Assembly: GCA_016176845.1 (NCBI GenBank)
Contig: JACOWJ010000035.1
Location: 1-22,683, forward strand
Direction of reading: 5' to 3'
DNA length: 22,683 nt
DNA from: Nitrospinota bacterium
GTDB taxonomy: Bacteria; 2-12-FULL-45-22; JACOWJ01
Both the position numbers and the translations under genes were made by a program. Numbering within the stretch: the stretch's first letter is position 1; each line of letters opens with the position of its first letter. The notes below the pieces were generated by a model. That model was not told the origin of the DNA. It searched no databases and was given only the letters and a program-made list of their open reading frames with translations. Of this stretch, positions 7,088 to 14,933 are shown piece by piece.

Positions 7088-8133
7088 GCTATTATAAGGT
7101 CTTGAGATATCTCAACGCCAATACCCTCTCCCTGAGCCACTTAAAGAACCGGGTCCGGCTGATGCGGAGCTATCAACAAAGGAGCTCCCACATCGCCGCC
7201 TTCCCGGTGGTGCTGCAGATCGAGCTCTCCAACCGCTGCAACCTCCAGTGCATCATGTGTCCGCGGCAGGGGATGACGCGGTCAAGGGGGGATATGGACC
7301 CCGCGCTGTTTCGCAAGATCATTGACGAGGCCGCGGGAAAGGCCGAGTTCGCCATCCTCCACCTGTTGGGGGACTCCCTGCTGAATCCCCATCTCTATGA
7401 GATGATCGACCAATGCCGGGAGGCGGGTATCCGCACGGTCCTGTCCACCAACGGGACGCTGCTCAACGAAAAGCATGCCCGACGGTTGCGAGCCTCCCAG
7501 CTCGACATCCTGATCCTCTCCTTTGACGGCTTCCGCCGGGAGACCTACGAGAAGGTCCGGAAGAACGCCAGCTACTCCAGGACTTTGCGGAATGTCGAGC
7601 GGTTTTTAAAGCTGCCTCCTCTGAGACATCCCCACACCATCGTCCAGATGATCGCCATGAAGGAGACCCGGGAAGAGGCCAAGGAGTTCCTGGGCTTCTG
7701 GAAAGGGTATCCGGCTCAGGCCTTGATCAAGCCCTTCACCCAGTGGCAGGGGGACATCGCCTCCATCAACGCGCTGTCGGACAACTCTGGGGGAGGGCCG
7801 TTGGCCGCCCTGAGGGATAAGGTCTGCGACCGGGCCTGGCGGTGGCTGACGGTCTACCAGGATGGGACCGTGGTGCCCTGTTGCCGCGATTACGATGGGG
7901 CCCACCCGGTGGGCAACCTGCGGGAAGGCTCGGTGTCTGAGGTCTGGAACAGCGAGTCCATGGTGCACTTCCGGGAGCAGCACCTGCTGGGGCGGGACCG
8001 GCTGGAGATCTGCCGCACCTGCGACTACCATCCGCTCATCGCCGATTCAGCCCTGGTCCGTATGGGGCTGACGCTGTTCGACATGTATGCGGTGACCCGG
8101 TTGATGTACGATATGGAGTATGGGGTGGATTGA
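7081..8133 (+). CDS. Radical SAM/SPASM domain protein
   Basis: This 350-residue protein has a radical SAM core with CNLQCIMC (C53, C57, C60), LHLLGDSLLNP at about 93-103 and LSTNGTLL at 121-128. A C-terminal SPASM-type region carries C249, the pair C267/C268 (VVPCCRDYDG), C311 and C314, which would bind an auxiliary Fe-S cluster. SPASM enzymes modify peptides, proteins or small molecules, and related forms occur in surface-polysaccharide and lipid clusters. There is no B12 domain. The GC-rich codon use resembles the first two radical SAM genes, in sharp contrast to the two AT-rich genes before it. The start overlaps the membrane protein's stop, and the deacetylase begins one base after its own stop, so the three are likely one transcript. 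Confidence 0.9.
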   Translation: MLSYYKVLRYLNANTLSLSHLKNRVRLMRSYQQRSSHIAAFPVVLQIELSNRCNLQCIMCPRQGMTRSRGDMDPALFRKIIDEAAGKAEFAILHLLGDSLLNPHLYEMIDQCREAGIRTVLSTNGTLLNEKHARRLRASQLDILILSFDGFRRETYEKVRKNASYSRTLRNVERFLKLPPLRHPHTIVQMIAMKETREEAKEFLGFWKGYPAQALIKPFTQWQGDIASINALSDNSGGGPLAALRDKVCDRAWRWLTVYQDGTVVPCCRDYDGAHPVGNLREGSVSEVWNSESMVHFREQHLLGRDRLEICRTCDYHPLIADSALVRMGLTLFDMYAVTRLMYDMEYGVD

Positions 8134-8134
8134 G

Positions 8135-9364
8135 ATGGATCCGGAGAGATACGCGCTGGAAAATCTGGCGATCTGGCTGGGCGTGGGGGTCGAGCGGTTC
8201 CGGTCCCTCCTGACCGGAGAGCAGTTAAGGGAGCTTTACGCCTCCCTGGTCGTCCAGCCCATCCCTCCCCACGAGCGGCTCCTCCGAAGGCTCCTTCAGC
8301 CCGTGATGGGGAGCTGCCCGCCGGGACTGAGGCGCGTGGTCACCGGCATCCTGAAGCAGGCCAGAAATCTTACCGTAAACCGACATGGCCGGCCGAAGTT
8401 GGCCGCCCCCAGGAATGAAAATGGGCTCCAGAGAGACGCCGGCATTTTCACGGTAAAAATGTCCGGGTCCCACCGTAGCCTGTTTTCGTTGCCGGGGGGG
8501 GACAAATCTGCCTGGCCATGGCGGTTTAAAGGGAAGAAGCCTGAAAGGCTCAGGGAGTGTTCCGCTGCCCGGCTGTTCCTGGAGCTCAAAGAGCTCTTGG
8601 GGGTCGATGGGATCGATTGGGGCGGTGCGAGGTCGGTGGTCTGCCTGACCCACGACGTGGACAACCTGGAGGGCTATCGGTTCATCGAGCAGGTGACGGC
8701 CATGGAAGAGCGGTATGCCGTTCGCTCCTCCTTCAACTTCCTGACCGGCTGGGAATACCAGATCGACCCAGAACTGATCTCCCACCTCGGCCGCGCGGGC
8801 TACGAGGTCGGCCTGCACGGCCTCACCCATGACATCGCCCTGGGGTTCCGGGGCCGGCAGGAGATCCGTCGGCAGATCACCGCCGCGATCGAGGGCCTGC
8901 CGATGAGGGCGGAGGGCTTTCGGGCTCCGGCCCTGGCGGTCAGCCAGGAGCTGTTAAGCGTCCTCGACGAGCTTGGCTTCGCGTACGACTCCTCCCTTTC
9001 CGTCACCAGCCGGTATTTTCGGGGGGTGGGGATCTGCCTCCCCTACCGCTACCCCGGCCTGAACCTCTGGGAGGTGCCCCTGGCCATCCAGGACGACACC
9101 CTCTTCCGCGACCTTCGCCTGAGCGAGGAGGAGGGGTTTCAGGTGATGAAGGAGCTGGTGGAACAGGTGCAGGCTCTGGGAGGGGTTGCGGTGATCAATG
9201 CCCATCCCTGCATCATCCGGAAACGGCCGGGGTTTTACCAGAAGTTGCTGGAGTACTTGGGGGAGGAGGAGGAGGAGATCCGGTGTATCCCCGTGGGGGC
9301 CCTGGTCCGATACCTGGAGGGATGCCGTTTGACTAAAGAAGGCAAAATGCAAAATGCAAAATGA
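8135..9364 (+). CDS. Polysaccharide deacetylase (NodB-like) with an in-frame palindromic insertion
   Basis: The 409-residue protein carries a NodB-homology domain from about residue 165. The metal site is formed by the LTHDVD motif (D174, with D176 nearby) and H228/H232 in GLHGLTHD; GFRAPA at 261-266 is a further family motif. Such enzymes remove N-acetyl or related groups from glycans or glycolipids. ATG 8135 is preferred over 8120 because it follows the previous stop by one base and has GGAG/GGGGTGG upstream. Residues 81-132 are encoded by a 153-bp palindrome (8376-8528) and do not look like deacetylase sequence; the insertion lies before the catalytic domain, so activity may be kept. The last residues (KEGKMQNAK) and the stop come from a gcaaaatg-type repeat. 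Confidence 0.88.
   Translation: MDPERYALENLAIWLGVGVERFRSLLTGEQLRELYASLVVQPIPPHERLLRRLLQPVMGSCPPGLRRVVTGILKQARNLTVNRHGRPKLAAPRNENGLQRDAGIFTVKMSGSHRSLFSLPGGDKSAWPWRFKGKKPERLRECSAARLFLELKELLGVDGIDWGGARSVVCLTHDVDNLEGYRFIEQVTAMEERYAVRSSFNFLTGWEYQIDPELISHLGRAGYEVGLHGLTHDIALGFRGRQEIRRQITAAIEGLPMRAEGFRAPALAVSQELLSVLDELGFAYDSSLSVTSRYFRGVGICLPYRYPGLNLWEVPLAIQDDTLFRDLRLSEEEGFQVMKELVEQVQALGGVAVINAHPCIIRKRPGFYQKLLEYLGEEEEEIRCIPVGALVRYLEGCRLTKEGKMQNAK
8376..8528. repeat. 153-bp palindromic element inside a coding sequence
   Basis: The arms are collinear without gaps around a centre at 8452. Outer ends are taaaccg (8376-8382) and cggttta (8522-8528), then catggcc against ggccatg, and a core cattttcacggtaaaaatg at 8443-8461. 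The length is 51 codons and it stays open in the host frame. Because of its symmetry, the reverse strand is also open and encodes a related peptide. Shared residues include NRHG, NEN and IFTVKM on both strands. The behaviour matches Rickettsia palindromic elements, which insert in frame into genes, although the sequence is not recognised as one of them. Confidence 0.85.
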
Positions 9365-14688: not shown

Positions 14689-14713
14689 CAGTGCTAGTCC
14701 TCCGTTTCTGAAT

Positions 14714-14846
14714 AGTGCCTGAACGAAAACCCATACTTTTGTCATTTCGACCGAAGGGAGAAATCTGTAAACGTTGTGATATCAACGGCAAAAAGATTTC
14801 TCGCTATGCTCGAAATGACAGTTTTGTCAGTTTTCGTTCAGGCACT
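14714..14846. repeat. 133-bp palindromic intergenic repeat
   Basis: The outer arms agtgcctgaacgaaaac (14714-14730) and gttttcgttcaggcact (14830-14846) are exact reverse complements. Inner arms gtcatttcgaccgaagg and agatttctcgctatgctcga-type words also pair, and the centre is tgatatca near 14780. Words of the form gtcatttcgag...gagaaatct occur as repeats in many bacterial genomes (general knowledge). It lies upstream of the SDR/MaoC gene and could act as a terminator or be a non-autonomous mobile element. Confidence 0.8.
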
Positions 14847-14849
14847 AAA

Positions 14850-14933
14850 TATTTACCGCAGAGACGCAGAGAAAACTACAAATTATGGAATATTCGGGTC
14901 CATTCTCTGCGCCTCTGCGTCTTTGCGGTAAAT
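14850..14933. repeat. Inverted repeat with accgcagagacgcagag arms
   Basis: atttaccgcagagacgcaga at 14850-14869 pairs with ctgcgtctttgcggtaaat at 14915-14933, and the inner gagaa/ttctc extends the stem. Similar ccgcagagacgcagag words are widespread in environmental genomes (general knowledge). It abuts the previous palindrome directly, and its right end touches the 3' end of the DUF4058 gene, where a hairpin could end transcription. Confidence 0.8.

Follow-up and report, generated by a model that had tools for sequence, protein, structure and literature searches.

An 82-bp repeat dispersed through the genome of an uncultured Nitrospinota bacterium and found in frame in several core genes

A gene for a polysaccharide deacetylase of an uncultured Nitrospinota bacterium (assembly GCA_016176845.1, contig JACOWJ010000035.1) contains a long palindrome that is translated in frame as part of the predicted protein, raising the question of what this sequence represents and how it came to be located within a gene. 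Within the window (i.e. the entire stretch of 22,683 nucleotides analysed here), positions 8376-8528 were found to contain 55 pairs in 76 mirrored positions, a value unmatched by any other 153-bp stretch of the window (z 8.1; mean 20.3, sd 4.3), confirming that the palindrome reported in the initial annotation is real. When folded as single-stranded DNA, this segment reached -50.2 kcal/mol (z -7.0), a stability that was equalled by none of 200 shuffled sequences. As had been described, the palindrome is wholly contained within the reading frame of the deacetylase (ORF 8120-9364), where it is translated as NRHGRPKLAAPRNENGLQRDAGIFTVKMSGSHRSLFSLPGGDKSAWPWRF, while the mirrored frame of its reverse strand is likewise open (NRHGQADLSPPGNENRLRWDPDIFTVKMPASLWSPFSFLGAANFGRPCRF), with NRHG, NEN and IFTVKM being common to both translations. 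The length given previously, exactly 51 codons, is correct as a length of 153 bp, but not as a codon register, as the segment begins on the second base of a codon (position 8376) and is therefore displaced by one base, encompassing 50 whole codons (8378-8527).

The palindrome had been taken for one element; however, it is composed of two head-to-head inverted copies of a genome-wide 82-bp unit, which is itself not a 153-bp palindrome. The features of this locus are as follows:

8135..9364, plus strand: host gene, encoding a NodB-type polysaccharide deacetylase (Pfam PF01522 at residues 172-288)
8377..8458, plus strand: repeat unit 1, 82 bp, AAACCG...GGTAAAA, in the deacetylase frame (NRHGRPKLAAPRNENGLQRDAGIFTVK), delimited by alignment of copies
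8387..8404, plus strand: internal hairpin of unit 1, GGCC...GGCC, present as GGCCAA...TTGGCC in the family consensus (sequence; pair counts, with 87-92% of cells paired)
8443..8461, no strand assigned: palindromic 3' end common to both units, CATTTTCACGGTAAAAATG, which is the centre of the palindrome (sequence; overlap of the profile matches)
8446..8527, minus strand: repeat unit 2, in inverted orientation and further diverged, of which the gene reads the mirrored frame, FTVKM-SGSHRSLFSLPGGDKSAWPWRF

A profile of the repeat family matched unit 1 at 8373-8462 (99.8 bits, E 5.8e-23) and unit 2 at 8442-8531 on the minus strand (63.9 bits, E 2.3e-13). The deacetylase gene, the start of which adjoins the stop codon of an upstream SPASM radical-SAM gene, carries the insert after its N-terminal region and before the NodB domain, such that the two inverted units, with their common palindromic 3' end, would supply approximately 50 extra residues at this position. 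Alignment with the orthologue of Nitrospinae bacterium RIFCSPLOWO2_12_FULL_45_22 (MHDQ01000162.1) extended on both sides of the insert, including the N-terminal region, and revealed that the orthologue lacks these residues, in agreement with the insertion ahead of the NodB domain that had been proposed. Predicted structures of the deacetylase and of KdsB, a further carrier protein described below, exhibited mean pLDDT values of 43 and 36, respectively, which are too poor to serve as evidence on peptide disorder.

The initial annotation hinged on the existence of further copies, and these were found. When the assembly of the organism itself (68% complete; 1.53 Mb in 61 contigs) was searched with 8376-8528, dozens of matches were returned, mostly over its first 83 bases only, and the true unit was shown to be 82 bp in length (AAACCGACATGGCC…GGCATTTTCACGGTAAAA), with short internal hairpins only and, following alignment of the copies, a consensus with sharp ends (AAACCGACATGGCCAAGCAAAGTTGGCCGCCCCCGGGAATGAAAATGGGCTCCAGAAAGACTCGGGCATTTTCACGGTAAAA). 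A strict pattern identified 67 copies, with none for the reversed control, and the profile identified 91 (E <= 1e-3). The copies possess a sharp conserved core with unrelated flanks and are mostly intergenic, which does not sustain the earlier designation of a specifically protein-coding element. They mostly occur singly, with arrays or truncated/fused copies at a few loci (L010, L016, L025 and L050), and only the dimer of the window forms a long palindrome. Several subfamilies were distinguished, as expected from successive waves of amplification, including one of 80 bp that would shift the frame if inserted and that was not found inside genes.

No match was obtained in a profile search of 144 other genomes, which included the only available relative of the same order, Nitrospinae bacterium RIFCSPLOWO2_12_FULL_45_22, as the sole other genome of the phylum. 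Similarly, the exact pattern was without a match in the GTDB contigs (a set that possibly does not include the genome itself), as was the unit in IMG/VR and in a plasmid collection rich in enterobacteria. The 82-bp unit thus very probably constitutes a new dispersed short repeat, apparently a non-autonomous mobile element and so far confined to one uncultured lineage, of which the window contains a head-to-head pair.

Other repeated sequences were observed in the same genome. An extra 3' module of ~59 bp (AACYGGTCATGCCCCATGGGCACCCAAGCGTATTAAAATGGTGGGGGCTATTTTCGTATCAAA) is present on the copies at L015, L024, L027, L056 and L065 (and, judged by their ends, L102 and L104); it was only encountered attached to the unit, and at L065 both unit and module are in frame. 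Another repeat (AAAATGGAAATTCCTATACGATTAAG), at times arranged as inverted pairs, occurs at L016, L017, L018, L024, L027, L028, L033, L055, L066, L093 and L096, and is directly adjoined by two copies of the 82-bp unit. Palindromic repeats of the TCATTGCGAGCGAAGCGAAGCAATCT type are located at L023, L024, L033, L035, L042, L094 and positions 14704-14856 of the window, the latter being its second-best palindrome. Finally, a fragment at L112:1501-1548 consists of the 5' part of the unit as a perfect fold-back (AAACCGTCATGGCCA...TGGCCATGACGGTTT).

Approximately nine genes, several of which are core or housekeeping genes, carry a copy in frame, supporting the earlier proposal that a lineage unrelated to Rickettsia possesses its own dispersed short repeat of this kind. 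Besides the deacetylase gene, these are:

L039:774-2081: CCA-adding enzyme, insert following the VGG-VRD loop and preceding the DVDLVVEG motif (49 residues at the site versus 3 in PDB homologues)
L092:831-1694: KdsB, insert within the cytidylyltransferase domain (39-43 residues versus 6-9 in PDB homologues)
L067:677-1693: type-4 uracil-DNA glycosylase (34 residues versus 9 in homologues)
L041:781-1839: FtsQ, insert preceded by the presumed membrane segment and followed by the POTRA domain
L049: XseA, insert close to the N-terminus and preceded by a ribosome-binding-site-like sequence and an ATG
L103: adenosine-specific kinase, insert close to the N-terminus and preceded by a ribosome-binding-site-like sequence and an ATG
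L065: secreted beta-propeller-type protein, insert near the N-terminus
L064: secreted periplasmic-binding/cytochrome protein, insert near the N-terminus, read in a reverse frame

The extra residues are missing from homologues of four of the nine genes (those encoding the deacetylase, KdsB, uracil-DNA glycosylase and CCA-adding enzyme), these being the four that were aligned through the site. For FtsQ, XseA and the adenosine-specific kinase, the same peptide was found in frame beside intact domains. In the CCA-adding enzyme, the surplus comprises the element and a second repeat-like stretch; the latter, a AGCTCAAAGCTCAAAGCTC stretch beside the element (L039:1084-1140), is also in frame and resembles another intergenic repeat of the genome. 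Judged from the sequences, XseA, the adenosine-specific kinase and the two secreted proteins represent less certain cases than the other five, because their inserts are near the N-terminus, where an error in the assigned start site is possible; codon-usage gene calling around the copies was too noisy for use alone.

The closest counterparts are the Rickettsia palindromic elements (RPEs), reportedly described by Ogata et al. in 2000 and 2002, with Wolbachia counterparts said to have been described by Ogata et al. in 2005. RPEs are short dispersed repeats that occur in frame in unrelated conserved genes, leaving the gene undisrupted, as well as in intergenic regions; they are non-autonomous and classed with MITEs (PMC2229807, PMC10969869, PMC3767692). 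The 82-bp repeat is similarly found in frame in several unrelated conserved genes and is missing from the aligned homologues. It differs from RPEs in that its unit is 82 bp instead of 100-150 bp, with separate short helices and a monomer that is not a long palindrome, and in that its host falls outside the Rickettsiales and shares its order with Nitrospinae bacterium RIFCSPLOWO2_12_FULL_45_22. Moreover, ~10% of its copies are in genes, compared with nearly half for the RPEs of R. conorii (PMC10969869). The repeat behaves like an RPE, yet is not classified as such on account of its different host lineage and of its monomer, which does not form a 100-150 bp palindrome.

The ERIC/RU-1, RU-2 and RU-3 elements of enterobacteria are MITE-like, ~100-170 bp in length and mainly intergenic, with open frames that are sometimes fused in frame to genes (Delihas 2007, PMC2759123, PMC2229807). 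The 82-bp repeat, being mainly intergenic with in-frame copies in genes, resembles them more loosely than it does RPEs, and whereas RU-1 and RU-2 display target-site duplications and 7-bp terminal pairing, its own terminal pairing (ACCG/CGGT, 92.5% paired) covers 4 bp and no duplication was found. As for the coding palindromes of Nematomorpha mitochondria, both arms of the inverted repeat are translated (here as predicted); however, the latter are long, perfect and apparently maintained inverted repeats in mitochondrial genes, and not a dispersed bacterial element (PMC6649704).

Based on the copy number, the subfamilies and the unrelated flanks, we infer that the copies were dispersed by an activity supplied in trans, most likely that of an enzyme that is absent from the assembly or has since been lost. 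Three families were covered by the search for such an enzyme: in the 68%-complete assembly, Y1_Tnp/RAYT (PF01797) was absent (with the same search being positive in 5 of 14 control genomes), as was reverse transcriptase, and the DDE transposase search yielded one weak sub-threshold match that was not bounded by element ends. None of the three was thus convincing as a source. With regard to target-site duplication, flanking direct repeats showed no clear excess across 72 copies, nor did the flanks of the 72 aligned copies contain a target motif, apart from a pyrimidine-rich 3' flank. Here, C/T accounts for ~70-85% at positions +2 to +5 behind the unit, for which a target preference or a loosely conserved end are possible explanations.

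Duplicated flanks within the genome were also inspected for an empty site, yet the pair at L013 and L029 proved to be occupied at both loci and family-C repeats provided no clean case, while the nearest relative is too distant for an empty-site comparison at the nucleotide level. The L013 and L029 copies (L013:1001-1086 and L029:999-1084) have flanks that are 81-85% identical, yet the elements occupying the corresponding position belong to different subfamilies, which points to a conversion or replacement between copies.

The manner in which the repeat is read within genes was found to be biased. The consensus contains one open plus-strand frame, NRHGQAxLAAPxNENGLQxDSGIFTVK (here the NRHG frame), and two open minus-strand frames. 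The NRHG frame is used by eight of the nine genes and a minus-strand frame by the remaining one (P = 0.0055 under frame use proportional to the frequency with which each frame is open). Its product is hydrophilic (GRAVY -1.03), compared with +0.45 and +0.07 for the reverse frames, and the core is exactly 27 codons (81 bp) in 46 of the 67 copies. Tolerance at the level of the host is a sufficient explanation of frame use in genes: insertions that shift the frame or introduce stops would be lost, and the survivors would be those in which the 27-codon core is placed in the sole open plus-strand frame, adding a hydrophilic, probably unstructured peptide in a tolerated loop or near a terminus. In itself, this peptide is most likely without a function.

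We consider it rather unlikely that, beyond such filtering, selection acts on the element itself to preserve an open NRHG frame, as translatability would widen the range of harmless target sites. Frame use of 8:1 in genes and the 27-codon core would be in keeping with this idea, as would the openness of the NRHG frame in 45 of 46 intergenic 81-bp cores, the two reverse frames being open in 38 and 24. Equally few NRHG stops were obtained in only 2 of 500 column shuffles, which replaced random substitution placement as the null for frame openness because variable sites are unevenly spread; the other frames matched the shuffles. However, intergenic diversity at codon positions 1-3 is about equal (0.19, 0.23 and 0.23), and therefore indicates no protein-level constraint. 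Column shuffles also ignore subfamily ancestry, which inflates the test, and most of the stop deficit derives from one linked block common to related copies. In addition, the 80-bp length class (16 copies) has spread despite its lost frame, and frame use in genes is explained by host-level filtering alone.

The openness of the intergenic cores is therefore no more than suggestive of the selection for staying open that had been proposed earlier, and selection for coding ability is weakly supported. There is perhaps a small chance that the repeat is adapted to translation, with the hydrophilic 27-codon frame being kept even between genes, gene insertions being tolerated and master copies possibly residing in genes. 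If true, in-gene selfish DNA would have originated independently in a non-rickettsial bacterium, the mechanism being frame maintenance.

Less probable still is a structured RNA or regulatory repeat, for which the intergenic copies would be functional and the gene copies accidental. The predominance of intergenic copies would suit this possibility, and a three-way junction (ACCG/CGGT, GGCCAA/TTGGCC and TGAAAATG/CATTTTCA) can be drawn, the proposed pairs of which are present in 91% of cells but disappear on a one-base slide, with the consensus RNA folding at -25.4 kcal/mol (z -2.2). Nevertheless, covariation was not above that of shuffles, RNAalifold predicted 0 pairs and the flanks have no context in common. 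A conserved RNA structure was hence not retained, and the predicted secondary structure is consistent with the sequences but unproven.

A similarly low probability is assigned to a REP/BIME-type repeat mobilised by a RAYT (Y1) transposase, with the dimer of the window as a REPIN-like inverted pair. Short hairpins, high copy number, intergenic bias and the head-to-head pair are features in common with such repeats (PMC3733652), but the unit of 82 bp is longer than the 20-40 bp expected, inverted pairing is rare among the mostly single copies, and the RAYT gene, as outlined above, was not found in the 68%-complete assembly. Lastly, that the 50 residues of the deacetylase are an ordinary ancestral part of the protein, and the palindrome a product of chance, is refuted for practical purposes by the 91 genomic copies, the orthologue without the segment and the z of 8.1, even if the frame is open throughout.

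Frequent in-frame insertion of selfish repeats has mainly been reported for Rickettsia and Wolbachia, both of which are obligate intracellular bacteria. That an uncultured bacterium from a different phylum possesses an independent family, with copies in the core genes cca, ftsQ and kdsB, suggests that short repeats inserted in frame have recurrently provided proteins with new segments. The 82-bp family also offers a comparative means of distinguishing adaptation of such repeats to coding from mere filtering by the host.
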